A stretch of DNA of 64,000 nt, taken from contig CAJXSK010000010.1 of assembly GCA_913061075.1 (NCBI GenBank), positions 1 through 64,000 on the forward strand, in the 5' to 3' direction. The position numbers and the translations under genes were made by a program. The stretch comes from an uncultured Piscirickettsiaceae bacterium (GTDB lineage Bacteria; Pseudomonadota; Gammaproteobacteria; Methylococcales; Cycloclasticaceae). Below, in pieces: positions 4,955 through 64,000 of this stretch (within the stretch, counting starts at the first letter, position 1; each line of letters starts with the position of its first letter). The notes under the pieces were generated by a model, which was not told the DNA's origin, made no database searches, and saw only the letters and a list, made by a program, of their open reading frames with translations.

Positions 4955-7461
<2,507 letters not shown>

Positions 7462-7571
7462 ACAACATAGTAATTCAGCGTCTTGTGGTGAACAGGGTGC
7501 GATAAATGTGCCTATACTGCTAGCGGTGCGCTACCAATATATTGTTTCAACTAACGTGCGGTTAACATAAG

Positions 7572-9794
7572 GTGTCTAAAAAACGGCCAATAATTACAAC
7601 CCGTAAATCTAAGGTTGACGCACCAGATCAAGAAAGCATCATCAGTAAAAAACAGTTACTGAGCTACTTAAAAGAACAACAAACACCGCAAGACTGGCTC
7701 GCTATTTCACGTGGGCTTGGCGTTGCTTCTAAGCGTTCAAAAAAAGCATTATCTAGCCAGCTGGCCGAGTTGTTGCGTACAGGGGAATTACTGTTTAATA
7801 GAAAAGAACAGTATTGCTTAGTGCAGCAAAGTGACTTAGAGGCGGGTACGGTCATTGGGCACGCAGATGGGTTTGGCTTTTTAAAATGTGAGGCCGGTGG
7901 TGATGATTTGTTTATTCCACCACGAGAAATGCGTGCACTCTTTAATGGTGACAAGGTACTGGCAAGTCGCGGAAAAATTAATAGGCAAGGAAAGGTCGAA
8001 GCGCGGATTGTGGAAGTGCTAGATAGGCACGTTAAAACTATTGTGGGGCGGTTTTTTGATGTGATGGGTGTTTACCATATTGAGGCCGAGAATAAGCGTA
8101 TTTTCCAACATATCTTCATTCCTAGTGATGCAATATTAAATGCTAAGGATGGGCAAATCGTCATGGTTGAGGTAACTCGTTACCCTTCTGCGCGTACTCA
8201 AGCGATTGGCAAAGTGGTTGAAGTAATGGGCGACCATATGGCGCCAGGCATGGAAATAGATATGGCTATACGTTCCTACGACTTACCGTATGAATGGTCT
8301 CAGCAAGTGTTAGACGAGGCGCAACAATTTTCAATTGATACCAATGATGTAGATATAAGTGACAGGACAGACGTGCGGTCGCTACCGTTTGTCACCATAG
8401 ACGGTGCAGATGCACGTGATTTTGATGATGCTGTTTATTGTAAAAAAACAGCAGATGGTTGGGTGTTAAGCGTAGCAATTGCCGACGTGTCACACTATGT
8501 AAAGCCTGGCTCAGCGATTGACAAAGAGGCTTATGAACGCGGTAACTCGGTTTATTTTCCAGAAAAAGTAATTCCAATGTTGCCTGAAGTGCTGTCTAAC
8601 GGTTTGTGTAGTTTAAACCCACTTGTCGACCGTTTATGCATGGTGTGTGAAATGCAGATAGATGAAGATGGCCGGATAACAGATTCAACTTTCCATCAGG
8701 CAATCATGCACTCACATGCACGGTTAACGTATGATCAAGTGGGTGAAATGCTCGAAGGGAGCAATGCGCCGCTGATAGAAAAAAACAAGGCGGTGATGCC
8801 GCATTTGTTAGAGCTTCATCGTTTGTATCAAGTGCTAAAAAATGCAGCAAATAATCGCGGTGCGCTTGAGTTCGACACGTTTGAAACGTGTTTCATTTTT
8901 GACGATGATAGAAAAATAAAAGCAATTGAGCCGTTAGTTCGACATGACGCACATCGACTTATTGAAATGTGTATGGTGGCAGCTAATGCAGCCACAGCCC
9001 AGTTCTTAGTAAAACACAACATGCCTAACTTGCTGCGTGTCCACGATGGCCCCAGTGTGGATAAGTTGCTGAAGTTAAGAAGTTTCTTGTCGGAAATAGG
9101 CCTGACCCTAGGTGGTGGGGATACGCCAACGCCGCGCGAATATAAAGAGCTTATTACAAAAGTGAAAGACCGCCCTGATGCGCATTTAATTGAAACAGTC
9201 GCATTAAGGTCAATGTCTCAGGCGCAGTACAGTCCTGAGCAAAAGGGGCATTTTGGATTGGCATTAGAGTTGTATGTGCATTTTACATCGCCGATTCGCC
9301 GTTACCCTGATTTGCTAACACACCGCGCTATTAAACATATTATTAAGGGTAAAAAGCCAAGTCGTTTTGATTATTCTGAGGCAGATATGGTTGGCTTCGG
9401 AGAGCATTGTTCTTTTTGTAATAGGCGAGCAGACGAAGCAACGAGAGATGTCGAAAGTTGGTTAAAGTGTGAATTCATGTCTGATAAGGTCGGAGACGAG
9501 TTTACGGGTGTTGTTTCTTCAGTTACGTCATTTGGTCTTTTTGTTGAGCTGGATAATATTCACATTGACGGCCTAATTCATGTAACCGCATTAGGTGACG
9601 ATTATTACCATTTTGATGCTGGCAAACATAGGTTGTTAGGTGAACGTACTAATAGGTCTTTTCGCTTAGGTGATGCCTTAAATGTAAAGTTAGTAAGAGT
9701 GAGCTTAGACGATAAAAAAATTGATTTGGCATTAGTGGGCGCTGAATCAAGTAAAAAAGCAGCGCCAAAACGTAAAAAAAGAAAAAAACGTTAA
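7572..9794 (+). CDS. rnr: Ribonuclease R
   Basis: 3'-5' exoribonuclease of the RNB family that degrades structured RNA. The 740 residues include an N-terminal helix-turn-helix-like region, cold-shock domains, the RNB catalytic domain, an S1 domain and a lysine-rich tail. The catalytic aspartates are in the stretch 277-286 (D277, D283, D285, D286; motif ARDFDDAV). The start is GTG: an in-frame stop at 7563-7565 leaves no upstream alternative and there is no early ATG. No convincing ribosome-binding site is visible. The stop overlaps the rlmB start (TAATG). Confidence 0.96.
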   Translation: MSKKRPIITTRKSKVDAPDQESIISKKQLLSYLKEQQTPQDWLAISRGLGVASKRSKKALSSQLAELLRTGELLFNRKEQYCLVQQSDLEAGTVIGHADGFGFLKCEAGGDDLFIPPREMRALFNGDKVLASRGKINRQGKVEARIVEVLDRHVKTIVGRFFDVMGVYHIEAENKRIFQHIFIPSDAILNAKDGQIVMVEVTRYPSARTQAIGKVVEVMGDHMAPGMEIDMAIRSYDLPYEWSQQVLDEAQQFSIDTNDVDISDRTDVRSLPFVTIDGADARDFDDAVYCKKTADGWVLSVAIADVSHYVKPGSAIDKEAYERGNSVYFPEKVIPMLPEVLSNGLCSLNPLVDRLCMVCEMQIDEDGRITDSTFHQAIMHSHARLTYDQVGEMLEGSNAPLIEKNKAVMPHLLELHRLYQVLKNAANNRGALEFDTFETCFIFDDDRKIKAIEPLVRHDAHRLIEMCMVAANAATAQFLVKHNMPNLLRVHDGPSVDKLLKLRSFLSEIGLTLGGGDTPTPREYKELITKVKDRPDAHLIETVALRSMSQAQYSPEQKGHFGLALELYVHFTSPIRRYPDLLTHRAIKHIIKGKKPSRFDYSEADMVGFGEHCSFCNRRADEATRDVESWLKCEFMSDKVGDEFTGVVSSVTSFGLFVELDNIHIDGLIHVTALGDDYYHFDAGKHRLLGERTNRSFRLGDALNVKLVRVSLDDKKIDLALVGAESSKKAAPKRKKRKKR

Positions 9795-10546
9795 TGGCTG
9801 AATTGCAAACAATTTATGGCATACATGCAGCTGAAGCCCTTATTGCTAAAAGAGCCGATCGTATTGTTAATGTATGGTTTGACCAACAGCGGGGAGATGA
9901 AAAGCTTACTGGGTTAAAAGAACAATTGGCTGGAATAGGCCTTGCCTTTACGTTGGTAGATAAAAAGACCTTAGATAAACTGTCCAAACACGGTAATCAT
10001 CAAGGTGTGTTGCTAACAGCAAGGTTACCCCAAGAGTTGAGTGAAGATGCGCTGAAGAATGCGCTCGCGTTGAAAGAAGGAAATGCGTTCTTTTTGGTGC
10101 TGGATCAAGTAACCGACCCTCATAACCTAGGTGCCTGCTTAAGAACGGCATTGGCTGCGGGTGTGGATGGCGTTATTGTGCCAAAAGATAATGCATGCAG
10201 AATAACGGCGACAGTGTGTAAGGTGTCTAGTGGGGCGGCAGAGGTTGTGCCTGTCTATCGGGTAACCAATCTAACTAGAACGCTGAAATGGCTTAAAACA
10301 CAGGCTGTTTGGCTGAGTGGTGCGGCAGGTGAGGCAGATAAGAGTTTGTTTGACGCTGAGTTGTCGGGTTCAGTCGCTATAGTAATGGGTGCGGAAGGGA
10401 AGGGCTTAAGAAAATTAACACTAGAACAGTGCGATCAGTTGATAAAAATTCCGATGGTCCATGACATGGAAAGTTTGAATGTATCCGTCGCGGCAAGCAT
10501 TATTATGTATGAAGTAGTCCGACAGAACTCGCTAGCATCTATATAA
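9794..10546 (+). CDS. rlmB: 23S rRNA (guanosine-2'-O-)-methyltransferase RlmB
   Basis: SPOUT-class SAM-dependent enzyme that 2'-O-methylates G2251 of 23S rRNA in the peptidyl-transferase centre. An N-terminal L30e-like substrate-binding domain (about 1-80) precedes the SPOUT domain, with motif 1 DPHNLGACLRTA (108-119), motif 2 VMGAEGKGL (197-205) and motif 3 ESLNVSVAASI (226-236). Length 250 is typical. The ATG overlaps the rnr stop by one base, the usual rnr-rlmB pairing. Confidence 0.97.
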   Translation: MAELQTIYGIHAAEALIAKRADRIVNVWFDQQRGDEKLTGLKEQLAGIGLAFTLVDKKTLDKLSKHGNHQGVLLTARLPQELSEDALKNALALKEGNAFFLVLDQVTDPHNLGACLRTALAAGVDGVIVPKDNACRITATVCKVSSGAAEVVPVYRVTNLTRTLKWLKTQAVWLSGAAGEADKSLFDAELSGSVAIVMGAEGKGLRKLTLEQCDQLIKIPMVHDMESLNVSVAASIIMYEVVRQNSLASI

Positions 10547-10577
10547 TAGATTCGTTTAACTTACACCATATTTAATT

Positions 10578-11105
10578 ATGCAATCCATTACCTATACGTT
10601 ACGTACGTCAGACATCGTCGATTTTAATGAATACCATGCCCGTAGAAATGGGGTTTACGGTAAGGGCATTACAAGGCATCAAATGATCTGGCCAGGTGTG
10701 GTGGCTTTGGTGGCTTTATTCGTTGTTATGTCAACTAAGCAAGCTCAAATGGGTGTGTACTTTTTGGTAGGCGCATTTGTATGGTCGCTAGTTGTCCCCG
10801 CATGGATGAAGAAAAGGTTCCAAGAACAAGTGTTAGAAGGGTTGTCAGAAGAGGTGATTAACGAAACAGCAGGTTTGTATACATTAATCACTCAGCCTAA
10901 GGGCATAAAAGAAATAACACCTTCGGGGGAAACGCTGATCACTTGGCGAGAAATACGCCGACTCGAAAAAACAAAGCGCCACTTGTTTTTATACATAAGC
11001 GATGATGCTGCATTGATTATCCCGAAAGATACCATGACAGATGAAAGTAATTTAAAAGATTTTAATAATGACGTGGTTGATTACATACAAAAAACAAGGA
11101 AATAG
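10578..11105 (+). CDS. YcxB-like membrane protein
   Basis: A 175-residue protein of unknown function. It starts with an MQSITYTLRTSDIVDFNEYH segment, followed by two transmembrane helices (about 36-54 and 59-77) and a cytosolic C-terminal domain whose TPSGETLITWREIRRLEKTK stretch resembles the YcxB-like C-terminal domain. The family assignment is from pattern recognition. It stands alone between rlmB and the rpsF promoter, 31 bases after rlmB, and may be transcribed with it. Confidence 0.75.
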   Translation: MQSITYTLRTSDIVDFNEYHARRNGVYGKGITRHQMIWPGVVALVALFVVMSTKQAQMGVYFLVGAFVWSLVVPAWMKKRFQEQVLEGLSEEVINETAGLYTLITQPKGIKEITPSGETLITWREIRRLEKTKRHLFLYISDDAALIIPKDTMTDESNLKDFNNDVVDYIQKTRK

Positions 11106-11114
11106 ACGGCTAGC

Positions 11115-11143
11115 TTGATTTAATTTGGTCTAGGCTGTAGAAT
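11115..11143 (+). promoter_or_regulatory. sigma-70 promoter of the rpsF-rpsR-rplI operon
   Basis: TTGATT (11115-11120) and TAGAAT (11138-11143) are exactly 17 bases apart, close to consensus. Transcription would begin near 11150, giving a leader of about 85 bases before rpsF that contains paired elements. Confidence 0.6.
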
Positions 11144-11156
11144 CGCGCGTTCGAAT

Positions 11157-11212
11157 TTGTAGCTATTTAAAACGCTACAACCCTTGCTTCACCTTCATTG
11201 TAAAAGGGAAGC
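11157..11212 (+). promoter_or_regulatory. structured leader of rpsF mRNA, possible S6:S18 autoregulatory element
   Basis: A perfect 7-base stem, TTGTAGC (11157-11163) with GCTACAA (11174-11180), lies just inside the predicted transcript start. It is followed at once by CCCTT (11181-11185), which can pair with AAGGG (11204-11208), while GCTT (11186-11189) can pair with AAGC (11209-11212). The last two pairings interleave and would form a pseudoknot. rpsF leaders that bind the S6:S18 complex are known in many bacteria. I could not match this one to the described consensus, so the assignment is inference. Confidence 0.4.
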
Positions 11213-11234
11213 TGATAATCCATAAGGACATAGT

Positions 11235-11657
11235 ATGAGACATTATGAAATAGTATTTCTGGTTCATCCGGACCAAAGTGCGCAGGTTCCTGCGATGATA
11301 GAACGTTATACCGCTACGATTGAAGAAGGCAATGGTAAACTTCATCGTGTAGAAGATTGGGGCAGAAGACAACTTGCTTACCCAATTAATAAAATTCATA
11401 AAGCACATTACACATTAATGAATATTGAATGTGGCCAAAGCGTGGTTGATGAACTTGAAAAATCTTTTCGTTTTAACGATGCAGTGATCAGAAACCTTAT
11501 TATGCGTTGTGACGATGCAGAATCAGGCACAACACCGCTTGCTAAATCTAATGAAAAAGATTCTACTGATACTAAGCCAAAACGTGAATATAAAGAGCCA
11601 GCAGCTGCTCCTGTGGAAGCAAAAGCTAAAACAGAAGAAGCGGCAACAGAAGAGTAA
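11235..11657 (+). CDS. rpsF: 30S ribosomal protein S6
   Basis: S6 binds the central domain of 16S rRNA as a heterodimer with S18. The first 95 or so residues give the ferredoxin-like S6 fold, with the [15 protein letters not shown] start and the [19 protein letters not shown] core. The tail beyond about 105 is polar and ends in acidic residues (EEAATEE), as in enterobacterial S6, where glutamates are added after translation by RimK. First gene of the rpsF-rpsR-DUF2232-rplI operon. Confidence 0.98.
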
Positions 11658-11702
11658 TTTCTTCACCTCGCTCGTTATACACAAAATAATTAAGGAATAA
11701 AA

Positions 11703-11939
11703 ATGACATTTGATAAAGGTTTTAGACGTCCACGTCACTGTAAATTTACAGCTGAAAACGTAAAGCAAATCGATTATAAAGATATCGATACATTAAAAGA
11801 ATATATGACTGAGACAGGTAAAATTATGCCTGCTCGTGTTACTGGTGTTAAAGCTAAGTATCAACGTCAATTAACAGCCGCTATTAAGCGAGCACGTTTT
11901 TTATCGTTGATTCCATATTGCGACGCACACGAAAGATAA
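11703..11939 (+). CDS. rpsR: 30S ribosomal protein S18
   Basis: Basic 78-residue protein that pairs with S6 on 16S rRNA. It contains the conserved [20 protein letters not shown] and [20 protein letters not shown] segments. The start at 11703 is preceded by AAGGA. It lies 45 bases after rpsF, in the normal order. Confidence 0.98.
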
Positions 11940-11982
11940 AATAGACTCATTCGTGGTCTTTGGCTGCGAATAAGCTTTTTGT

Positions 11983-12879
11983 ATGAAAGCACTAGCAACA
12001 TTTATCATGCAAGGTGGGCGCCAAGCGACTGTAGTCGTAGCGGTGTTAGCGGTTTTATCGCTATTGTTCCCCCCTTTAGTTATCTTTAGTGTGGCGGCAC
12101 TTTGTTTGGTTGCATTGAGAAATGGAGCAGCAGAGGCAGCCAGAGTCATCATAGGTGCTACAGTAGCAACAGCCCTGATGGGTTTGGTCTTACTTGGGAC
12201 ACCAGTCATTTCACTGACGTATTTGTTTGTACTGTGGATGCCCGCGTACCTTGTTTCGCTAGTGTTGCGAGAGACGGGTCAATTCAGCAAAGCATTAGAA
12301 GTCTTGGTGTTGTTGGGTATGATAGCGGTGTTGGGCGTGTACATGATGGTTGATAATCCATCAGAACAATGGGCTTTGGGTATTCAAAGCGCTATTGGAA
12401 AAATTAGTCAGCAACAAGAGCTACCTGTTACGCAAGAAGAGTTAAATGCGGGGATTGAATTTTGGTCCCATTACATCACAGGTATTGTAGTGGCGGGGTC
12501 GTTAGCTACACTTGTTGTGAGTTTGATATTAGCCAGATGGTGGCAAGGGTTGTTATATAACCCGGGTGGTTTTAGCGAGGAGTTTGCTGGTATTCGCTTA
12601 TTACCTAGAGACGCAGTTGTTTTTGTTACGTTAATGTTTGCGGCATCAATATTAAGTAACGATCTGGCTGAAGTGTTATGGAATGTTGATATACCTGTAT
12701 TGTTATTGTTTTTAATGGTGGGTATGTCAGTTGTACAAGGCATTGTAAAAAAGAAAAGTAAGGGGCGAGCAATTTTAATTGTCTTTTATTTGGCTGTATT
12801 TTTTGTACCGCATTTGATCTTTCCAATTGTTTTAATTGGCTTGTCAGATGTTTGGATGGATTGGCGTCAACGGTTGTAA
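11983..12879 (+). CDS. DUF2232 multi-pass membrane protein
   Basis: A 298-residue, strongly hydrophobic protein with about seven or eight predicted transmembrane segments and short polar loops. Length and position between rpsR and rplI match the DUF2232 family found at this place in many gammaproteobacteria. Function is unknown. It is probably co-transcribed with the ribosomal genes, 43 bases after rpsR and 43 before rplI. Confidence 0.8.
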   Translation: MKALATFIMQGGRQATVVVAVLAVLSLLFPPLVIFSVAALCLVALRNGAAEAARVIIGATVATALMGLVLLGTPVISLTYLFVLWMPAYLVSLVLRETGQFSKALEVLVLLGMIAVLGVYMMVDNPSEQWALGIQSAIGKISQQQELPVTQEELNAGIEFWSHYITGIVVAGSLATLVVSLILARWWQGLLYNPGGFSEEFAGIRLLPRDAVVFVTLMFAASILSNDLAEVLWNVDIPVLLLFLMVGMSVVQGIVKKKSKGRAILIVFYLAVFFVPHLIFPIVLIGLSDVWMDWRQRL

Positions 12880-12922
12880 AGCGTGGCGAAAATAAAATTT
12901 TAATATTAATAGGATATGTGCG

Positions 12923-13372
12923 ATGGACGTTATTCTTCTTGAAAAAGTAGCAAATTTAGGTGACTTAGGTGACAGAGTTTCTGTGAAGCCAGGTTTTGGT
13001 CGTAATTTTTTAGTTCCCAATGGAAAAGCAGTACTAGCGACTGCGGATCGTATTGAAGAATTCGAAAAACGTAGAGCCGAGCTTGAAAAAGCAGCCGCTG
13101 AACGTTTATCTGATGCAGAAAAACGAGCTGAAGCAATTAATAAACTAACGTTAGAGATTGCTCATCAAGCAGGCGAAGAAGGTAAGCTGTTTGGTTCTGT
13201 GGGTATGACGGATATTATTAAATTAGCAGCAGATGCTGGGGTTGAGTTATCTAAAAACGAAATCAAGCTACCTGATGGTCCGATTAGGCAAACAGGTGAG
13301 TTCGATATACTTGCTCACTTACATACAGATGTTGTTGCAACGTTTAAATTAACTGTAGTAGCAGAAAGCTAA
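12923..13372 (+). CDS. rplI: 50S ribosomal protein L9
   Basis: Two-domain protein of the large subunit near the L1 stalk base. The N-terminal RNA-binding domain shows the signature GDLGDRVSVKPGFGRNFLVP (about 13-32), followed by the long connecting helix and the C-terminal domain. The length of 149 is the usual one. AGGATATG precedes the ATG. It closes the operon, followed by a strong terminator. Confidence 0.98.
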   Translation: MDVILLEKVANLGDLGDRVSVKPGFGRNFLVPNGKAVLATADRIEEFEKRRAELEKAAAERLSDAEKRAEAINKLTLEIAHQAGEEGKLFGSVGMTDIIKLAADAGVELSKNEIKLPDGPIRQTGEFDILAHLHTDVVATFKLTVVAES

Positions 13373-13388
13373 GTTAAGCTATTTAAAT

Positions 13389-13422
13389 AAAAAGCCGGTG
13401 CAATTTGCGCCGGCTTTTTTTT
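13389..13422 (+). terminator. rho-independent terminator of the rpsF-rplI operon
   Basis: An 11-base stem with one G-U pair (13391-13401 with 13407-13417) closes a 5-base AATTT loop and runs into a tract of eight T residues (13415-13422). It lies 18 bases after the rplI stop. Confidence 0.92.
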
Positions 13423-13487
13423 GCACGATATTTTTGTACTAATTCTTCATGTACAATTAACTTTAATCATTTTTATATTGCCGATGT

Positions 13488-14882
13488 ATGCCTGAAAGCC
13501 AACTTAACTACGATATGCCAGACGAGACCGAGTTTCTCAGAGTGCCGCCACATTCATTACAAGCTGAGCAATCTGTGATTGGTGGTTTAATGTTGGACAA
13601 TCATTGTTGGGATGTTGTCGCTGAATTAGTATCAGAAGAGGATTTTTATCGTAAAGATCATCGGCTAATCTTTGGTGCTATTGCTAATTTAGCTAAACAA
13701 GATGAACCATTTGATGTAGTAACAATTTCAGAAGTTTTGGAAAAAACAGCTGATTTGGACACAGTAGGCGGGTTGGCTTATTTAGGGACACTGGCAAAAG
13801 ATACGCCCAGCGCGGCAAATATTAAGAGTTATGCTGATATCGTTCGTCAACGTTCTGTTCGCCGTCAATTAATACACATTGGTAACGAGATAGCCGACTC
13901 GGGTTTTGATACAGCGGGTGGCGAAATTTCCGAATTGTTAGATGTTGCGGAAACAAAGGTTTTTCAGATTGCTGAACAAGGGGCTAAGGGAAAAAATGGT
14001 TTTGAGCCGATTAAAGATATATTGGCAAAGGCTGTCACACGCATAACTGAATTACATGAAACTGGAGACTCCATAACAGGTGTCAGTACAGGCTTTAAAG
14101 ATTTAGATGAGATGACATCGGGTCTACAACCGGCCGATTTAATTATCGTGGCAGGACGACCTTCAATGGGGAAAACCAGTTTTGCGATGAACTTAGCCGA
14201 GAATGTTGGCATACAAAGTGGTTTGCCTGTGGCTGTGTTTAGTATGGAGATGCCAGCTGATTCTTTAGCAATGAGAATGATGTCTTCACTCGGGCGTATT
14301 GATTCGCATAAAGTTCGTACTGGGCAATTAGAAGAGGATGAATGGCCACGTATGCAGTCCTCCATTAATTTATTAGCAGAGGCTAAGCTATTTATTGATG
14401 ATACCGCGGCGCTTAGCCCGGTTGAAGTTCGTGCGAGATCGCGTCGTTTAATGAAAGAACATGGGCAGTTAGGGTTGATTGTATTAGATTATTTACAACT
14501 GATGCAGTCGCCTTCGAGTAGTGAAAGTAGGGTGGCTGAAATCTCTGATATTTCACGATCATTAAAAGCGTTGGCAAAAGAATTGAACGTACCAGTCATC
14601 GCACTCTCGCAATTGAACCGTAATCTTGAACAACGCCCTAATAAACGCCCTGTTATGTCTGATTTAAGGGAGTCTGGAAGTATCGAACAGGATGCAGATG
14701 TTATTGTGTTTATTTATAGAGATGAAGTCTACAACGAGGATTCGCCCGAAAAAGGCATTGCTGAAATCATTATTGGCAAACAGCGGAATGGCCCCATTGG
14801 TACGTGTCGATTAACATTTTTGGGGCAATACACCCGTTTCGAAAATTATGCACATGATTCTTACTCGGATGATGATTATTAA
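13488..14882 (+). CDS. dnaB: Replicative DNA helicase DnaB
   Basis: Hexameric 5'-3' helicase at the replication fork. The N-terminal DnaB domain (PHSLQAEQSVIGGLMLDN, about 21-38) binds primase, and the RecA-like C-terminal domain has Walker A GRPSMGKTS (223-231). Walker B lies in LIVLDYLQLM, and the motif LRESGSIEQDADVI is intact. Its 464 residues show no intein insertion. The position after rplI is standard. Confidence 0.98.
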   Translation: MPESQLNYDMPDETEFLRVPPHSLQAEQSVIGGLMLDNHCWDVVAELVSEEDFYRKDHRLIFGAIANLAKQDEPFDVVTISEVLEKTADLDTVGGLAYLGTLAKDTPSAANIKSYADIVRQRSVRRQLIHIGNEIADSGFDTAGGEISELLDVAETKVFQIAEQGAKGKNGFEPIKDILAKAVTRITELHETGDSITGVSTGFKDLDEMTSGLQPADLIIVAGRPSMGKTSFAMNLAENVGIQSGLPVAVFSMEMPADSLAMRMMSSLGRIDSHKVRTGQLEEDEWPRMQSSINLLAEAKLFIDDTAALSPVEVRARSRRLMKEHGQLGLIVLDYLQLMQSPSSSESRVAEISDISRSLKALAKELNVPVIALSQLNRNLEQRPNKRPVMSDLRESGSIEQDADVIVFIYRDEVYNEDSPEKGIAEIIIGKQRNGPIGTCRLTFLGQYTRFENYAHDSYSDDDY

Positions 14883-14939
14883 TGCGAGCGCTTATTCTTG
14901 ACGTCCTAAAGCCATTTTATTTGTTGGTTGAAAAAAAGA

Positions 14940-16025
14940 ATGATTAACCAGGCTGTTGCAGAAATAGATTTAAGTGCTCTTAAGCATAATTTGGCTATTG
15001 TAAAAAAAACAGCATACCAATCTAAAGTAATGGCGGTTATTAAGGCGAACGCTTATGGCCATGGTATGTACCAAGTTGCACAAGCACTCATTGATGCAGA
15101 TGCTTTTGCTGTAGCACGCGTTGCAGAAGCAGTAGAGCTTCGAGATGCCAATATCAAAGGCCCCATTGTCGTATTAGCTGGTTTTAATACCGCGTCAGAG
15201 TTAACAATATGTAACGCACTCGAGTTAGATGTTGTTATTCATTGTGAGCAGCAAATTGAGTTATTGAACAGAGCCAATTTTGATAAGCCTCTAACCGTGT
15301 GGATGAAAATAAACACAGGAATGAATCGTTTAGGGTTTGATCCAGCTGATGTTACGTCAGTTATTCATCGCCTTGAGCTTAATCAAAATATAAGACAACC
15401 ATTTAAGTTAATGACGCACTTGGCGTGCGCTGATGATATGTGCTCGGATGCAACAGCAAATCAAGTAACATTGTTTGATGAACTGGTAAGCAACACAATA
15501 GGTGAACAAAGCATTACAAACTCAGCTGGGTTGTTGGCTTGGTCGTATGCTCAACGCCATTGGGTAAGGCCGGGTATTATGTTGTACGGCGGCAACCCGT
15601 TTTCTAACAAAGCAGCTGAAGATAATGGGCTGAAGCCCGTTATGACGTTTAAAAGTAATATATTGGCTATTCACCGCGTAAAGAAAGGGCAATCTGTTGG
15701 TTATGGTGGTGCTTGGATAGCATCGAAAACAAGTTTGATTGCTACGGTAGGCATAGGGTATGGAGATGGCTACCCTCGGCATGCCTCAATGGGAACGCCC
15801 GTGTTAATTAACAAGCAACATGCCTATTTAGTGGGGCGAGTATCTATGGATTCAATTTCAGTTGATATCACGGAGTGTGAGAACATTTGTATTGGTGACG
15901 ACGTTATTTTATGGGGAAATGGATTGCCAATTGAGGATGTGGCTAAAGCGAGTGACACTATATCGTACGACTTGATGTGTGGTGTGACAGAGAGAGTGCC
16001 ACGACGTTATATAGAGGTAAATTAG
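14940..16025 (+). CDS. alr: Alanine racemase
   Basis: PLP enzyme that interconverts L- and D-alanine for peptidoglycan. The ATG at 14940 gives 361 residues with the normal family N-terminus (AEIDLSALKHN). The PLP lysine is K35 in AVIKANAYGHG, and the second catalytic base is Y255 in SVGYGGAW, followed by GYGDGYPR. A TTG at 14928 would add four residues (start MKKRM) but is not needed for the fold. Neither start has a strong ribosome-binding site. The stop abuts the GTG start of radA. Confidence 0.95.
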   Translation: MINQAVAEIDLSALKHNLAIVKKTAYQSKVMAVIKANAYGHGMYQVAQALIDADAFAVARVAEAVELRDANIKGPIVVLAGFNTASELTICNALELDVVIHCEQQIELLNRANFDKPLTVWMKINTGMNRLGFDPADVTSVIHRLELNQNIRQPFKLMTHLACADDMCSDATANQVTLFDELVSNTIGEQSITNSAGLLAWSYAQRHWVRPGIMLYGGNPFSNKAAEDNGLKPVMTFKSNILAIHRVKKGQSVGYGGAWIASKTSLIATVGIGYGDGYPRHASMGTPVLINKQHAYLVGRVSMDSISVDITECENICIGDDVILWGNGLPIEDVAKASDTISYDLMCGVTERVPRRYIEVN

Positions 16026-55705: not shown

Positions 55706-57382
55706 ATGAGTGATAGCAGCCCCGAATTAGCCCCCAGTAATTTTATTCGCAATATTATTGATGCGGATATTGAATCGGGTAAGCATGAAAATGTGGTGAC
55801 GCGTTTTCCGCCAGAGCCCAATGGTTATTTACACATAGGGCACGCTAAGTCAATTTGTTTGAATTTTGGTATTGCTGATGATTACGCGAATGCGATTTGC
55901 CATTTACGTTTTGATGATACAAACCCAGGTAAAGAAAAATCTGAGTATATTGAAGCGATTAAAGAAGATGTTCGTTGGTTAGGGTTTGAATGGAACGACA
56001 ATCTCCATCACACATCGGACTATTTTGATCAGCTTTATGTTTACGCAGTTCAGCTAATCAAAAATGATAAAGCATATGTTGATAGTTTGTCTGCTGAGGA
56101 TATTCGTTTATACCGCGGTAATTTAACAGAGCCAGGTAAAAACAGTCCTTTCAGAGACCGATCGGTTGAAGAGAATATTGATTTATTAGAACGCATGAAA
56201 AATGGTGAGTTTGCTGAAGGCGAGCATTTGTTACGTGCAAAGATTGATATGGCTGCTCCCAATATCAATATGCGTGACCCAGCTATTTATCGTATTAAGC
56301 ATATGTCGCACCCTATGACGGGTGATAAATGGCATATCTACCCCATGTATGATTTTGCACATTGCGTTTCTGATGCGATTGAGGGGATTACCCATTCACT
56401 ATGTACGTTGGAGTTCGAAGATCACCGCCCATTATATGACTGGTTCTTAGATGAGCTAAATACATCAGCCCATCCGCAACAAATTGAGTTTTCAAGGTTA
56501 AACCTAGATTACACCGTGATGAGCAAACGTAAGCTACATGAGTTGGTTGAAGGTGGCTACGTTAACGGATGGAATGACCCGAGGCTTCCAACAATTAGCG
56601 GAATGCGCCGTCGCGGATACACCGCTAACGCGATAAGAGATTTTTGTTCGCGTATTGGTGTGACAAAAAAAGACAACATCATCGAAATGAGTGTGCTCGA
56701 AAATTCATTGCGTGAAGACCTTAATGAAAATGCAACGAGGGCATTGGCAGTTCTTGATCCGATTAAATTAATAATAGATAACTACCCAGACGATAAAGAA
56801 GAAATCCTGGCGGGTGTAAATCATCCAAAAAAACCAGAAGAAGGCACGAGAGATATTCCATTCTCTAAAGAACTATACATTGAACGCAGTGATTACATGG
56901 AAGGTGCTTCAAAGAAATTCTTCCGTTTAACTGAGGGGCGCGAAGTTAGGTTACGCTTTGCATACTATGTTACCTGTACACACGTTGTAAAAGACGAAAA
57001 TGGTGAGGTGACTGAAGTGCATTGCACCTATGACCCTGAAACGAAAGGAGGAAAGTCAGAAGATGGTCGCAAAGTAAAAGGAACGATTCATTGGGTATCA
57101 GCTAAACATGCGGTTACAGCTGAAGTGCGGCAATACGATCGGCTTTTTACGGTGCCAGATCCTGCGTCAAATAAGGAGCAGGATTTCAAATCTTTACTCA
57201 ATCCAAGCTCTGTTCAAGTGCTAACTAACTGCCAAATGGAGCCATCAATGCTTCAATCTGGCACAGAAGTTCGCCAATTTGAGAGACAAGGGTACTTTTG
57301 CCAAGACAGTGTTGATTCAACAGTTGATGCACTGGTTTTTAATAGAGTCGTCACGCTACGAGACTCTTGGTCGAAGAAATAA
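55706..57382 (+). CDS. glnS: Glutaminyl-tRNA synthetase
   Basis: Class I synthetase charging tRNA-Gln. The 558 residues show HIGH at 43-46 in [18 protein letters not shown], the KMSKS equivalent VMSKR (271-275) and the C-terminal beta-barrel anticodon-binding domains. Its presence implies direct glutaminylation rather than the amidotransferase route. It stands alone and is followed by a hairpin terminator. Confidence 0.97.
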
Positions 57383-57600: not shown

Positions 57601-58767
57601 ATGGAAACAATAAGAAAAATACTACCAGGTGAAATAAGTGTCGGTGAGCCTTTGCCTTGGCCCGTTTACGACGTTGAAAAAGCGTTATTGCTTCAAGAAG
57701 GCACCGTGGTTCGTTCCGAAAAGCAAATGAACATTATTATGGAAAAAGGTGTTTATCGAGGGATGACGAAAGATGAAGTTGTTGAAGAGAAACAAAAAGA
57801 ACAAGCAAAGTTAGAGGATAGATGTAAAAGAAAGCCAGAAAACCCTTTTGAAATGAAAAGGAGTTGTGCAAAAAATTTGCAAACACTTATTCAAAATTTA
57901 ATAGAGGGTAACAAAGTAGACGCATACTCATTGGCTATGGATATAGCTAAAACCATTAAGCAATCGTGTGAATACAACGCCAATGCAACATTGGCAGCGA
58001 TACATTTGTCAGATGAGTTCTCGTACGGGATATTACACCCACTACACGCTGCTACATTAAGTGAGCTTTTAATGCGCCGTTTAAATTTTACAGATGCCCA
58101 AGAGCAAACGGTTATGGCGTCTGCCTTGCTAATGAATGTTGGGATGTTTGAATTGCAAGATCAGTTATTTTCTCAAACCGAAGCACTAACAGAACAACAG
58201 CGAATTGATATTCATGCTCATCCTCAAAAAAGCGTAAACATTCTTCAAGCGGCTGGCGTAGAAGATGAGCATTTATTGAAAATTATACTTCAACACCATG
58301 AGCGTATAGATGGAGGTGGTTATCCAAAAAGCCTGACCGGGGATATAATTCATCAAGGTGCAAAAGTAGTATCGCTTGCGGATATGTACGCGGCCATGAT
58401 TACGCCACGTGCGTACAGGGAGCCAATTATGGCTCATGATGCATTAAAGAAAATATTTGTAGATCGCGGGAAATCGGTTGATGATCACCTTACCCAATTG
58501 TTAATTCGAGAAGTTGGTATCTATCCGCCGGGGTCTTTTGTTAAGTTAGTAAATGGAGATACAGCTATCGTTATTAAGCGAGCTATTGTAAAAAAAGGTA
58601 GCAGTGCTTCAGCGCCTATTGTTTCATGCCTAATAAGCCCAAGAGGTGGTTTATATGGAAACCCGTTAATGTGGGATGCCAATATGGATATGTATAAAAT
58701 TACGGGTATGGCGCAGCCAGAATTTGATGAGCCAATTAATTTTGCTAATTTTTGGGGGTTTAAATAA
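57601..58767 (+). CDS. HD-GYP-like protein with lost HD dyad
   Basis: 388 residues. The N-terminal part resembles the DUF3391-type module found before HD-GYP domains, then a charged linker (about 70-85), then an HD-GYP-like domain (about 130-290). The first histidines (HPLHAA) and HHERIDGGGYP (232-242) are present, but the HD dyad reads M178-N179 in LLMNVGM. Without the HD pair metal binding is doubtful, so it is more likely a c-di-GMP sensor or scaffold than a phosphodiesterase. A C-terminal beta-rich tail follows. Single gene between glnS and the ABC exporter. Confidence 0.85.
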   Translation: METIRKILPGEISVGEPLPWPVYDVEKALLLQEGTVVRSEKQMNIIMEKGVYRGMTKDEVVEEKQKEQAKLEDRCKRKPENPFEMKRSCAKNLQTLIQNLIEGNKVDAYSLAMDIAKTIKQSCEYNANATLAAIHLSDEFSYGILHPLHAATLSELLMRRLNFTDAQEQTVMASALLMNVGMFELQDQLFSQTEALTEQQRIDIHAHPQKSVNILQAAGVEDEHLLKIILQHHERIDGGGYPKSLTGDIIHQGAKVVSLADMYAAMITPRAYREPIMAHDALKKIFVDRGKSVDDHLTQLLIREVGIYPPGSFVKLVNGDTAIVIKRAIVKKGSSASAPIVSCLISPRGGLYGNPLMWDANMDMYKITGMAQPEFDEPINFANFWGFK

Positions 58768-58950: not shown

Positions 58951-60747
58951 ATGGCGCAAACAAATACAACGAATCAAAAAGGCGACAGTCCCAAGCCAAA
59001 ACATATCGTCTCGTTAAAAGATTTATTGCCATTTTTAAAGCCCTATCGCTTACAAGTAGCTATTGCTTTTGTGTTACTAAGCTTGGCTTCTGCAACGTTA
59101 CTATTAGTGCCATTAGCCTTTCGTGATTTAATTGATGTGGGCTTTGGTGAAAGTGATGGTGCCGTCCCGGCTATTAATATTGATACTAAGTTTGGCGTGC
59201 TATTTGGCTTGGCTGCTTTTTGGGCGCTTATGGTAGCTTCTCGGTATTACATGGTGTCATGGATAGGTGAGCGAGTAACAGTGGATTTACGCAGTGGTGT
59301 GTATGCCAGTGTATTAAGGCAATCGCCACAGTTTTTTGAAACCTTGCAAACAGGTGAAGTGCTTTCTCGTTTAACGGGCGATACCACGCTTATTCAAACG
59401 GTTGTTGGTAGCTCCGCATCAATGGGATTACGCAGCGTGTTTCAGTTTGTGGGTGGCATGATTATGCTCGCGGTGACTAGCTTTTACTTGTTTTCAATCA
59501 ACATCGGTTTAATGGTCTGTTTGATTTTTCCCATCATGCTCATTGGCCGTTCAGTCAAAAGACTCTCACGTGAATCACAAGACCGTATCGCCGATAGTTC
59601 CGCGATGGCCGGTGAAATTTTAAATGCGATGCCAACTGTGCAATCTTATACGCAAGAAACGCGAGAAACGAACCGCTTTACTCATAGCGCACAGTTAAGC
59701 TTTTTAACCGCGATTCGTAGAACAAAGGTCAGGGCATTACTCACTGCAGTGATTATTACCGCAGTAATGGGCGCAATTATTTTTGTATTATGGTTAGGTG
59801 CGCGCCAAGTAAGTGAAGGAGTAATGACTGGAGGCGAACTGGCTTCATTCGTCTTATATGCCGCCATGGTGGCCGGTAGTGTGAGTACTATGGCACAGGT
59901 ATGGGGAGACATTATGCGTGCAGCTGGTGCCACTGAACGTTTGCTCGAATTATTGCATGCAGAAACAGCGATTACTGAAGCAATAAATCCATTACCATTA
60001 GCAAGCCTGTCACAAGCCAACATTCAATTTAACAAGGTGACATTTCACTACCCATCACGGCCACGTAGCCCTGCATTAAATAACGTTAATCTGCACATTA
60101 ACGCAGGTGAAACCGTTGCCTTAGTTGGGCCATCAGGTGCAGGAAAGACCACCATTTTTCAACTGTTGTTACGATTCTACGATGCGCAAACTGGCAGCAT
60201 TACCATAAATGATCAAAATATTAATGACATTAGCTTGCATGATTTACGGGGCTTAATTGCAATTGTCCCGCAAGATCCCGTGATATTTTCTGCCAATGTA
60301 TTAGAAAATATCCGTTACGGACAACCCAACGCTACGGATGACGCCGTAATCGCCGCGGCGACTGCCGCACAAGTCGCGCAATTTGTGCCGCAATTACCCG
60401 ATGGTTACAACACCTTCTTAGGCGAGCGTGGTACACGTTTGTCGGGTGGGCAAAGGCAACGTATTGCCATTGCACGCGCCATGTTAAAAAACGCGCCTAT
60501 TTTATTATTAGACGAAGCCACCAGCGCACTGGATGCTGAATCTGAAATACTCGTACAAGAAGGGCTCGATGCCGCCATGCAAGACAGAACGACACTGATT
60601 ATTGCCCACCGGTTAGCCACGGTACAAAAAGCCGATAAAATCGTCGTCATGGAAAATGGTGAGATTGTAGAAACAGGCGATGCGGTCGAGCTACGAAAAA
60701 AAGGCGGCTTGTACGCAAGGCTTGCTGACTTGCAGTTTGAAAACTGA
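58951..60747 (+). CDS. ABC transporter, fused permease and ATPase (ABCB/MsbA-like exporter)
   Basis: 598-residue half-transporter. The N-terminal ABC membrane domain (about 30-320) has six predicted helices; the ATPase domain has Walker A GPSGAGKT (393-400), signature LSGGQ (497-501) and Walker B ILLLDEATSALD. It resembles MsbA-type lipid or drug exporters and the ABCB group of alphaproteobacteria, but the substrate cannot be told. It is the last clearly core gene before the tRNA-Asn scar. The stop lies in an inverted repeat. Confidence 0.93.
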   Translation: MAQTNTTNQKGDSPKPKHIVSLKDLLPFLKPYRLQVAIAFVLLSLASATLLLVPLAFRDLIDVGFGESDGAVPAINIDTKFGVLFGLAAFWALMVASRYYMVSWIGERVTVDLRSGVYASVLRQSPQFFETLQTGEVLSRLTGDTTLIQTVVGSSASMGLRSVFQFVGGMIMLAVTSFYLFSINIGLMVCLIFPIMLIGRSVKRLSRESQDRIADSSAMAGEILNAMPTVQSYTQETRETNRFTHSAQLSFLTAIRRTKVRALLTAVIITAVMGAIIFVLWLGARQVSEGVMTGGELASFVLYAAMVAGSVSTMAQVWGDIMRAAGATERLLELLHAETAITEAINPLPLASLSQANIQFNKVTFHYPSRPRSPALNNVNLHINAGETVALVGPSGAGKTTIFQLLLRFYDAQTGSITINDQNINDISLHDLRGLIAIVPQDPVIFSANVLENIRYGQPNATDDAVIAAATAAQVAQFVPQLPDGYNTFLGERGTRLSGGQRQRIAIARAMLKNAPILLLDEATSALDAESEILVQEGLDAAMQDRTTLIIAHRLATVQKADKIVVMENGEIVETGDAVELRKKGGLYARLADLQFEN

Positions 60748-60784: not shown

Positions 60785-60852
60785 AGCTGGCTGATCTCTT
60801 GATTGTCAGAATAGCTAGCCCCGTGATTTTACTTGAATAACCTTACTCCAAT

Positions 60853-60887
60853 AAAAAAGCCCCAGCATCGTAAAAAGCTAAGGCTTT
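60853..60887 (-). terminator. rho-independent terminator of the tRNA-Asn locus
   Basis: Read on the minus strand, a 9-base stem with two G-U pairs (60877-60885 with 60858-60866) and a ten-base loop runs into six T residues (60858-60853). It starts ten bases after the tRNA-Asn 3' fragment, so it is probably the original tRNA terminator. Confidence 0.75.
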
Positions 60888-60894
60888 GATATAA

Positions 60895-60941
60895 GGCTCC
60901 TCCGACTGGACTCGAACCAGTGACCCAATGATTAACACTCA
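60895..60941 (-). pseudogene. 3' half of a tRNA-Asn gene (att-type scar)
   Basis: On the minus strand this reads from the GTT anticodon (revcomp of 60934-60936) through the TCAT anticodon arm, variable loop, T-arm (ACTGGTTCGAGTCCAGT) and the 3' acceptor strand CGGAGGA plus discriminator G, closely matching bacterial tRNA-Asn(GUU). The encoded end is CCT rather than CCA. The 5' acceptor strand and D-arm are absent: upstream sequence does not pair with the acceptor. It cannot be functional alone. Such a fragment is what an integrase leaves at the far end of an element inserted in a tRNA gene. Confidence 0.82.
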
Positions 60942-60970
60942 CCACTTGTTTTGATAGATGTGTAAAGCAT

Positions 60971-61329: not shown

Positions 61330-61358
61330 TTGATATTGACAGTATTACTGTTTATATT
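61330..61358 (+). promoter_or_regulatory. promoter of the MerR / VIT-vWA operon
   Basis: TTGATA (61330-61335) and TATATT (61353-61358) are 17 bases apart. The predicted transcription start is within a base or two of the merR ATG at 61366, and no ribosome-binding site precedes that ATG, so the message may be leaderless. Classic MerR promoters have 19-20-base spacers; this one is normal. Confidence 0.55.
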
Positions 61359-61366
61359 AACTGTCA
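61337..61366 (+). promoter_or_regulatory. candidate MerR operator (dyads inside promoter)
   Basis: ACAGTA-T-TACTGT (61339-61351) is a perfect 13-base dyad located wholly in the spacer between -35 and -10, where MerR proteins bind. A second, wider dyad TGACAGT (61337-61343) with ACTGTCA (61360-61366) shares its left arm and covers the -10 box. Three ACAGT half-sites in all. Autoregulation is inferred. Confidence 0.5.
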
Positions 61367-61797
61367 TGAAAGAAAAAAAGAGTTTATACACATTAGATGA
61401 GCTATGTAGTTTAGTTGATATGCCTCGTCGGACAGTGCGCTATTACATCCAAGTTGGATTAATTGATCGACCAGGTGGTTCGGGTCGAGGCGCACACTAT
61501 AACAATCAGCACCTAGACCAACTATTAGAAGTTCGAAAGTGGCAACGAGCAGGGTTGTCTCTCGAACGTATCCGTGAGCTTGTTACATCACCGACTAGTG
61601 AGACTGTGATTCCACCTTTACCAAAACGTAAGAAAGGAGCAGTAGAGGTTTGGAGCCACATTGTGATTGATGACGGAATAGAAATAACGATAAACCCGAA
61701 GCAGGCAAATTTGTCCCATGAAGAAGTTCGGAAATTAGCAAAAAATGTTATACAACTCTATGAAAAAATACGCTCAGACAGGGAGAATAAACGATGA
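61366..61797 (+). CDS. MerR-family transcriptional regulator
   Basis: 143 residues from the ATG at 61366. The winged helix-turn-helix is at the start (YTLDELCSLVDMPRRTVRYY, then GLIDRPGGSGRGAHY), and a helical part (LDQLLEVRKWQRAGLSLERI) fits the MerR fold. The C-terminal part is short, with a beta-rich stretch (VWSHIVIDDGIEITI) and a final helix; no metal-binding cysteine pair is seen, so the effector is not a thiol-bound metal. The TTG-led extension from 61330 would run through the promoter and is rejected. It overlaps the VIT-vWA gene by four bases. Confidence 0.88.
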   Translation: MKEKKSLYTLDELCSLVDMPRRTVRYYIQVGLIDRPGGSGRGAHYNNQHLDQLLEVRKWQRAGLSLERIRELVTSPTSETVIPPLPKRKKGAVEVWSHIVIDDGIEITINPKQANLSHEEVRKLAKNVIQLYEKIRSDRENKR

Positions 61798-63911
61798 TGG
61801 AAAACACAGCTGCGGTACTTGGGTCAGCGAATGATAACAACATTGTTCTTGAATCAGTTGATATTGATGCAACATTAAAAGGGGTATACGCTGAGGTTGA
61901 TGTCACCCAAGTCTATCGGAACCAAGAACAGCATAATATTGAAGCGGTCTACACATTTCCATTGCCACTGGATGCCGTACTACTTAGTCTATCGTTGGAG
62001 CTCAACGACAAAGTACTCCGAGGTGTTGTACAAAGTAAATCTACAGCTGCAGATAAATATGAAGACGCTATTTCAGACGGAGATTCTGCTGTGCTTCTTG
62101 AACAAATAGAGCCCGGTCTTTATACCTTAAATGTGGGTAATATTCAGCCTAGTGAAAAAGCCGTCATTCGATTGAAGTATGGTCAGCTACATAAGTGGCA
62201 AGGAGACAGTTTACGTTTTTACATGCCGACGACGGTTGCTCCTCGATATGGCGACCCACTTGCTTCCGGTTTGGCGCAACATCAGGTGCCAGAAGCTGCC
62301 TTAATGGCTGAAAATGTTTTTTCATTGGTTGTCAAAATTAAAGGAGAACTGGCGCACTCAGATTTCAATTGTCCCACGCATACTATTGCTGTTTCGACTG
62401 TGGATTCGGTAAAAGAGGTTAGTTTATCGGGTAGTACAGCGCTAATGGATCGAGATTTTGTGCTGATCATTAAGGAGCCAGAAGGATCCGTTAATGAGGC
62501 GCTCACAGTTTCTGACCAAGGCTACTCACTTGTTCTTACCTCATTTCATCCGACCTTTCCCGTTGAGAAACCAAGCTTATCACGCTGTATAAAACTGGTT
62601 GTCGATTGTTCGGGGTCAATGAGTGGTGACTCAATCAGGCAAGCAAAAGTGGCGTTGCATGAAATTCTTTCTCTACTTAAACCGAACGATAGTTTTAATA
62701 TAATTCGGTTTGGCTCTGACTTCCAAATGCTATTTAAAGAACCGCGCATAGCATCTGATGCCTACCTCCTGATGGCTAAAGAATATGTTGAAGAAATTAA
62801 TGCTGACATGGGAGGAACCGAAATTGGACTAGCAATGGAAGCGGCCTACCACGGCAATGGAAGTGACGGCCCGTCATCTGATCTTTTATTGATTACTGAT
62901 GGAGAGGTGTGGGATCACGAAAGTGTTATTGAAACAGCACGCCAATCAGGTCACAGGGTTTTTACTGTTGGAGTAGGTAGTGCTGTTTCTGAAGGGTTTG
63001 TCAGGCAAATCGCTGATGTCAGCTCTGGAGCTTGTGAACTGGTCAGCCCTGGTGAAAACATGGCAGATCGTATCGTTCATCACTTCCGACGTATCGGACA
63101 GCCTAAGTCAAAAACGGTTCGAGTTGAATGGCCGGTTCCGCCAGTTCGTCAAATACCTTCAAAAGTTGAAGCAGTTTATGCAGGAGATACATTAAATATT
63201 TTTGGTTGGTTCAACGAACCGATTGCTGGAATCGTAAAGCTGACGATGGAGCTTGAAAATGGACAAACAATTCACCAGGACATAAAAATTCTTTCAGAAA
63301 CATTGCATCATGCAGAAAATGGGCTGGCACGAATTGCTGCGTATGCTCGTTTGCCAGAGATGGCGCCGGATCAGTCGGCAGTGTTAGCAGAGCAATATCA
63401 ACTTATGACCCAATATACAAGCTGCGTTTTGGTTTATGAGCGCGAAGAAAGTCAAAAAGCAGAGGAAGTTCCAGCGATTCGTAAAGTACCGCAAGTATTA
63501 GCGGCTGGTTGGGGGGGTATTAGTAGTGTTGATTGCTGCGAATTTATGGATACAGATGTTGATTTTGACTTGCATACATTTTTGCGTAGGGAGTCTTCAT
63601 ATTTTTCCCATTTGGTTGAAGAGTTGAATGACCGCTACCTAGACACCCATACAGCAAAGCTTGAGGTGATAACGGTTTCAGTGCTGACAGTCATGGGGCT
63701 CAATTCATATATTTCTGAACAATTATTAAACCTCATTGATAATGGTTATACAGAACGAGCAGTTGTAGTCACTTTCCTATCAATGCTTTCTGATAGTGAT
63801 TATGGAAACACTTTTTCTCGTCATATGAAGCGATTAATCCGGATGGCAGCCAAGGGTGTTGAGTATAATGCGGCCTTGAGTGAGGCGGTTGATCGAGTTA
63901 TCAGTGACTAG
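61794..63911 (+). CDS. Cytoplasmic VIT + von Willebrand factor A domain protein
   Basis: 705 residues without signal peptide or membrane helix. An N-terminal VIT domain (about 10-135, with AVYTFPLPLDAVLLSL) is followed by a vWA domain (about 262-435) with all MIDAS elements: D271-x-S-x-S (DCSGSMS), T342 in GGTEIG and D369 in ITDGEVWD. The YQLMTQYTSCVLVYERE segment after it is typical of VIT-vWA proteins; the last 130 or so residues form a helical region of unknown role. GGGAG eight bases upstream supports the ATG at 61794. Translationally coupled to merR. Such proteins usually act as metal-dependent protein-binding scaffolds; the partner is not known. Confidence 0.9.
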   Translation: MMENTAAVLGSANDNNIVLESVDIDATLKGVYAEVDVTQVYRNQEQHNIEAVYTFPLPLDAVLLSLSLELNDKVLRGVVQSKSTAADKYEDAISDGDSAVLLEQIEPGLYTLNVGNIQPSEKAVIRLKYGQLHKWQGDSLRFYMPTTVAPRYGDPLASGLAQHQVPEAALMAENVFSLVVKIKGELAHSDFNCPTHTIAVSTVDSVKEVSLSGSTALMDRDFVLIIKEPEGSVNEALTVSDQGYSLVLTSFHPTFPVEKPSLSRCIKLVVDCSGSMSGDSIRQAKVALHEILSLLKPNDSFNIIRFGSDFQMLFKEPRIASDAYLLMAKEYVEEINADMGGTEIGLAMEAAYHGNGSDGPSSDLLLITDGEVWDHESVIETARQSGHRVFTVGVGSAVSEGFVRQIADVSSGACELVSPGENMADRIVHHFRRIGQPKSKTVRVEWPVPPVRQIPSKVEAVYAGDTLNIFGWFNEPIAGIVKLTMELENGQTIHQDIKILSETLHHAENGLARIAAYARLPEMAPDQSAVLAEQYQLMTQYTSCVLVYEREESQKAEEVPAIRKVPQVLAAGWGGISSVDCCEFMDTDVDFDLHTFLRRESSYFSHLVEELNDRYLDTHTAKLEVITVSVLTVMGLNSYISEQLLNLIDNGYTERAVVVTFLSMLSDSDYGNTFSRHMKRLIRMAAKGVEYNAALSEAVDRVISD

Positions 63912-63955: not shown

Positions 63956-64000
63956 ATGCTTGTTAAACAATGGTTTATTGGTTGGGATGTCGGCGGTTGG
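63956..64000 (+). CDS. Third gene of the cassette, first 15 codons only
   Basis: ATG at 63956 is preceded by AGGGGGC (63941-63947) at a fair distance and opens a frame to the window end: MLVKQWFIGWDVGGW. The gap from the VIT-vWA stop is 44 bases. The FIGWDVGG pattern recalls the first strand and phosphate loop of actin-like/RNase H-like folds, but 15 residues are too few for assignment. Confidence 0.6.
   Translation, partial: MLVKQWFIGWDVGGW

Follow-up and report, generated by a model that had tools for sequence, protein, structure and literature searches.

Tandem genomic islands that target tRNA genes are already known and the mechanism behind them is textbook; the array described here is an ordinary kind of island at a landing site that is busy both in this marine bacterium and in related ones. 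According to the available part of the Islander paper (PMC4383910), the crossover is centred on the anticodon in 2083 of 3919 islands. The present locus resembles the islands described in that part of the text, since a complete tDNA and a 3′ fragment of the same orientation bound the interval, a PF00589 integrase lies inside and the crossover is anticodon-centred (PMC4383910). Tandem arrays are resolved there only when every member comes with an integrase and a fragment of its own, whereas of the two segments here one has an integrase (PMC4383910).

From the accessible text on the ssrA islands of Dehalococcoides (PMC3146451), it is clear that they also stand in tandem behind one RNA gene, with copies of its 3′ end as bounds and a varied cargo, and that some are without integration genes and are termed there possible cis-mobilizable elements. 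They differ from the present array in their target (tmRNA), in their crossover site (the T-loop) and in the reductive dehalogenase genes that many of them carry; the same text compares their integrase DsiB with CcrB (PMC3146451). As far as the available parts of the published texts go, these tandem islands are the closest parallel that we found. CcrB is a serine recombinase. Cycloclasticus sp. PY97N, from the genus to which the present genome appears to belong judging by its named relatives, has islands with integrase genes, predicted by IslandViewer4 at no less than 77.6 kb and 27.0 kb, and no tRNA-Asn target or half was found described in the accessible portion of that paper (PMC6776764). 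Among the Cycloclasticus papers retrieved on genomic islands or on integrases and tRNA, no title or abstract opening describes this site, and nothing was found when tRNA-Asn, integrase, anticodon loop and genomic island were combined in a literature search.

The displaced tRNA-Asn half

The window, that is, the whole stretch of 64,000 nucleotides analysed, is C10:1-64000, part of a contig (C10) in a genome of 2.26 Mb and 20 contigs. Related genomes are given by handle (G001 and so on). The window features that matter here are:

55706..57382, plus strand: glnS, conserved left bound of the variable zone, found in 15 of 18 genomes
58951..60747, plus strand: ABC transporter gene, left neighbour of half A and convergent with it; accessory in the genus, with 88-95% identical copies in G001, G002 and G008
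60853..60887 (about), minus strand: intrinsic terminator behind half A, hairpin plus T run; fold −17.3 kcal/mol, z −4.40
60895..60937, minus strand: displaced 3′ half of tRNA-Asn(GTT), 'half A', which starts in the anticodon loop and runs through the acceptor stem, very probably an attR-type border; 43/43 identity, no tRNA or Rfam model
61330..61797, plus strand: MerR-family regulator, first gene of the segment between halves A and B (Pfam MerR_1, 3.3e-14)
61794..63911, plus strand: protein with VIT and von Willebrand A domains (Pfam VIT, 3.2e-30; VWA, 2.2e-15)
63956..64000, plus strand: start of a 244-aa gene that ends at contig position 64690, phage-defence candidate PDC-S44 (PADLOC PDLC05021, E 2.9e-108)

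Half A (TGTTAATC...GGAGGAGCC on the minus strand, window 60895-60937) matches this genome's complete tRNA-Asn(GTT) at all 43 bases, and a BLAST search of the genome with tRNA-Asn plus terminator as query returned 60848-60941 with E = 9e-25, far better than chance would give. The exact identity starts at gene position 33, which by our count is base two of the anticodon loop; position 32 is mismatched, the preceding three bases (TGA) match, and similarity then stops, so that the 5′ half is absent. At the other end, the final A of the gene-encoded CCA is altered (GCCT). ARAGORN found no tRNA over the window, Rfam no family at gathering score, and none of the 32 genome-wide matches to RF00005 falls on half A; a true tRNA at this position is thereby ruled out. 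The broken tRNA-Asn end is a real border of inserted DNA, with the whole gene farther right and both a second broken end and an integrase gene between the two. An earlier note on this DNA had described a minus-strand 3′ half without a 5′ half, at 60895-60935, followed by a good terminator, and had named a full tRNA in a covariance search as one outcome that would count against its reading; the description is borne out, with the half placed correctly to within two bases.

The terminator behind half A has a run of six T, and 0 of 200 shuffles fold as well. Hairpins of differing sequence occupy the equivalent position behind other tRNA-Asn copies and group into several sequence types, that of G003 differing from the one here. 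Comparison by eye with 13 complete-tRNA loci in 12 genomes, our own included, gave no direct match in the relatives. That this terminator is the original one of tRNA-Asn, as the earlier note had it, is no more than plausible.

The locus beyond the window

Contig C10 (75,188 bp) extends 11 kb past the window and ends within hsdM. A second exact tRNA-Asn half, half B, lies on the minus strand at C10:65132-65174, 4.2 kb from half A. The terminal 55 bases of C10 are the right end of contig C12 reversed, this 55-mer occurs nowhere else in the genome, and joining the two contigs yields one uninterrupted hsdM frame of 601 aa; 55 bases is a usual k-mer overlap in short-read assemblers. C10 and C12 thus appear to be adjacent, as judged from the 55-bp overlap rather than from reads. 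On the joined scale J (J 1 = C10:60001), a complete minus-strand tRNA-Asn (C12:39171-39246) starts at J 22038, which across the join puts it about 21 kb to the right of half A, and is followed by aspC and uvrB. It is the one complete tRNA-Asn found in this genome. Seen against the Islander description, the complete tRNA and the displaced fragment of the same orientation stand at opposite ends of the interval (across the contig overlap), a PF00589 integrase lies within it, and a related genome, G003, is without the inserted DNA.

The earlier note had forecast both a complete minus-strand tRNA-Asn at the far right border, which was found across the 55-bp overlap, and an exact copy of the half to the right, which is half B. 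The tyrosine integrase that it expected is present to the right as well, but adjoins the inner half B and not the complete tRNA. The single island that it proposed gives way to at least two segments bounded by tRNA halves, and its extension to the right is supported by the right-hand copies, although variable DNA also lies left of half A.

The two segments

From half B rightwards, the genes encode a 230-aa protein of the phage family phrog_1353 (function of the family unknown), the tyrosine integrase (C10:66398-67582; Phage_integrase, PF00589, 1.6e-29; Arm-DNA-bind_3), a DUF1413 protein, a protein with a weak AAA match and several proteins without a Pfam family. The final genes before the complete tRNA-Asn are hsdM, hsdS, a gene for a 309-aa protein and hsdR, the hsd genes forming a type I restriction system. 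No relaxase or type IV secretion Pfam (E ≤ 0.01) was matched in the 17 sequences scanned from half A to the complete tRNA, a set drawn from the longer ORFs with hsdM entered as two pieces; within that set the hallmarks of an integrative and conjugative element are missing.

A block of 9030 bp that includes the integrase (J 5055-14082) is 99.7% identical to G008 contig C4:1217-10246, whereas the ABC, aspC and uvrB stretches of G008 have 74-89% DNA identity to this genome; this difference between block and flanks points to a recent transfer between species. No half was found at the right end of the block (J 14082) when up to 14 mismatches in 43 were allowed, ungapped. The block (9121 bp, megablast) had zero matches in 72,556 plasmid records, and 2320 phage records match the integrase, every one at less than 60% identity. 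Among 48 loci with relatives of the integrase in named genomes, nine of which (L068-L076) were also scanned with ARAGORN, the 43-nt half occurs as a displaced half (≤13 mismatches) only in the G008 and G014 records (L068, L069). The matches in L073 and L074 (Aeromonas; integrase 31% identical) proved to be complete tRNA-Asn genes, and two other 43-nt matches, in L074 and L088, fall within other tRNA-like sequence.

Between this genome and G008, identity is unbroken up to the end of half B; the terminators then differ, and similarity fades within about 80 bases. Conservation of the 85 bases compared before half B extends to G008 and G014 (scores 170 and 103, against a shuffle maximum of 24), and these are the only other loci with an intact integrase of the same family beside a half, the integrases being 100% and 57% identical. 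In contrast, the arm of half A has no resemblance to the half-B arm (its score is reached by 126 of 300 shuffles), and the A-B segment was therefore probably not inserted by the neighbouring integrase. The arm of the G006 half is equally unlike that of half B (201 of 300 shuffles), and since a truncated integrase of the same family lies nearby, G006 counts against a simple rule that pairs integrase with arm. Altogether eight other halves were compared (A and C here, one in G006, three in G007, and those of G011 and G016, with the halves of G003, G009 and G017 left aside), none of which resembles the half-B arm beyond shuffles. In G007, a different integrase, 20% identical to the one here, stands beside one half. 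With arms so unlike and this second integrase, several kinds of element seem to use the tRNA-Asn anticodon loop.

The 4.2-kb segment between halves A and B contains no integrase among its ORFs of at least 80 aa, so the tandem-array pattern of a fragment and an integrase in each member breaks down here. The gene for the VIT and von Willebrand A protein overlaps the MerR gene by 4 bases, and the protein was found in this genome alone among the 18 of the genus (E ≤ 1e-20). In the third gene, residues 4-240 match positions 5-253 of the 257-position PDC-S44 profile, a match over the length of the model, whose function is a candidate one only; the protein has zero Pfam or NCBIfam matches at E 0.01. 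The available text of the sole paper that we found naming PDC-S44 lists it for a Synechococcus bin, as a candidate system consisting of one gene. Of 369 class-level genomes, 4 yielded the family (this genome is one of them), and no MerR or VIT homologue (E ≤ 1e-4) was found around it in G070, G164 and G276 (18.0, 7.5 and 14.0 kb scanned). A conserved trio of MerR, VIT and PDC-S44 is rejected, since in the stretches scanned PDC-S44 stands in those three genomes without the other two nearby.

The tRNA-Asn site in the genus

The genes aspC and uvrB lie beside tRNA-Asn in 17 of the 18 genus genomes, and in the 18th (G017) the contig begins within the tRNA. Five genomes allowed the spacing between tRNA-Asn and a glnS on the 3′ side of it to be read: 0.38 kb in G003, 8.8 kb in G002, 15.6 kb in G010, 17.1 kb in G001 and 24.7 kb in this genome across the join; elsewhere the two lie on different contigs or, in G014-G016, glnS was not found. 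The comparison with a relative lacking the insert, which the earlier note had suggested, thus led to the near-empty site of G003. Its 0.38-kb gap holds no half; the ABC gene is missing as well, which means that G003 does not show exactly what the site was like before the insertion. Nor is the gene order universal, since G007, assembled as a single contig, has its glnS some 40 kb from tRNA-Asn on the opposite side. As to half-like sequences, 14 matches in 9 of the 18 genomes start at tRNA position 26-36 and reach at least position 75 (79-96% identical), a count set apart from the shorter or later-starting matches in G005, G007 and G009. No second half was found in the scanned stretches of G010, G001 and G002.

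The left flank is variable too. Copies of the ABC gene with at least 88% identity occur in 4 of the 18 genomes, counting this one (the G016 match is 47%). The gene is accessory, so half A marks a border within a wider variable zone bounded by glnS. No half adjoins the ABC gene in G001 and G002, and in G008 the half lies 3 kb from it. Of the 14 inner branches in the AspC tree built for 17 genomes, 2 are well supported; the ABC gene needs 3 changes, and it clusters no more than shuffled data do. An HD-GYP gene (window 57601-58767) lies between glnS and ABC here and is absent there in G002, where ABC is about 0.12 kb from glnS. In G014 a half lies between the end of an HD-GYP gene and an integrase, and the 70% identical HD-GYP piece ends beside them (L125). 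Two short pieces like the ABC 3′ end were also seen behind tRNA-Asn on G008 contig C12 (L051:12880-12959, 14882-15073); G008 has the whole ABC gene on C4 besides, and flank sequence may have been carried along.

The cargo of the interval, drawn from a subset of the ORFs in these stretches, differs from genome to genome. G001 has type I-F Cas1, Cas2/3 and Cas5-8f genes, G002 a KAP NTPase, G009 type I restriction genes as in this genome, G006 a PAS/histidine kinase and a GGDEF/EAL protein, and G010 AbiC-like, ring-hydroxylating dioxygenase and RND efflux genes. On G001 contig C1 (L049:7933-15796), Cas1, Cas2/3, Cas8f, 5f, 7f and 6f run between ABC and tRNA-Asn; on G010 contig C12 (L041:1980-17453), dioxygenase alpha and beta subunits, other Rieske proteins, an RND efflux pair and an rve-type transposase were seen. 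PADLOC at 1e-10 gave no match for two G017 and two G010 proteins.

Two further loci were noted. On G006 contig C14 (L045:1822-9500), two complete tRNA-Asn genes stand 7.6 kb apart, one of them without aspC beside it; a truncated integrase, in pieces 64-72% identical, and a half that differs at 4 of its 43 bases come just before the second. In this genome, C13:38219-38310 (L008:8220-8311) holds a decayed half of tRNA-Asn, together with a terminator, some 255 bp behind tRNA-Leu(TAA), in a stretch 95.4% identical over 1383 bp to G017; as glnS of G017 is just 84% identical, this piece may have moved between species.

Origin of the halves

We are highly confident that half A is an attR-type scar, left when DNA integrated site-specifically into the sole complete tRNA-Asn found, and that at least two insertions by tyrosine-recombinase elements took place. 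Such an element would cross over in the anticodon loop of tRNA-Asn and supply a 3′ half with terminator that rebuilds the tRNA, while the earlier 3′ half and its terminator would be displaced to the far end of the element. At least two such integrations would leave the order glnS, HD-GYP gene, ABC, half A, integrase-less 4.2-kb segment and half B, followed by the integrase segment, the type I restriction genes, the complete tRNA-Asn and aspC. We infer the order of insertion from the sequence, as we do the direction and recency of spread and the separate past or present mobility of the segments. Scar A probably now only marks a border; perhaps it also stops transcription.

Very unlikely, in our judgement, is that the half is a dispersed repeat, consisting of half and terminator, which spread by another route, such as homologous recombination or transposition, and is no sign of integrase action. 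The C13 copy behind tRNA-Leu, off the tRNA-Asn locus and common to this genome and G017, would suit such a repeat, as would the further half copies of G007, more than 0.9 Mb from its tRNA-Asn. However, most copies start at the anticodon loop, three have a conserved arm and adjoin integrases that belong to a single family, and halves A and B share the orientation of the complete gene. That half A is a second ordinary tRNA-Asn which decayed by losing its 5′ part, unrelated to islands, is harder still to believe. Gene duplication does occur in the genus, as the two complete genes of G006 attest, but here the 43 bases of the 3′ half are intact while the 5′ part is entirely replaced from the anticodon loop, half B has the identical breakpoint 4.2 kb away, and several genomes have this breakpoint in common with unrelated 5′ sequence. 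Repeated site-specific integration is thus our preferred reading of both halves.

Significance

A bolder, compound proposal is that the A-B segment is an integrase-less cassette of MerR, VIT/vWA and PDC-S44 genes that serves as a so far undescribed anti-phage system and travels in trans or by accretion with its neighbours, and that throughout the genus Cycloclasticus the exchange of both defence and aromatic-degradation genes runs mainly through the tRNA-Asn-glnS interval; taken as a whole, we regard it as rather doubtful.

Taken together, the results locate a precise integration site, along with its integrase, in a genus noted for breaking down polycyclic aromatic hydrocarbons in the sea, and reveal a 9-kb block that two species share almost unchanged. 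Depending on the species, the tRNA-Asn-glnS interval carries type I-F Cas, restriction or ring-hydroxylating dioxygenase genes, and since its cargo varies in this way, it may reveal a door by which genes for defence and degradation enter these genomes.
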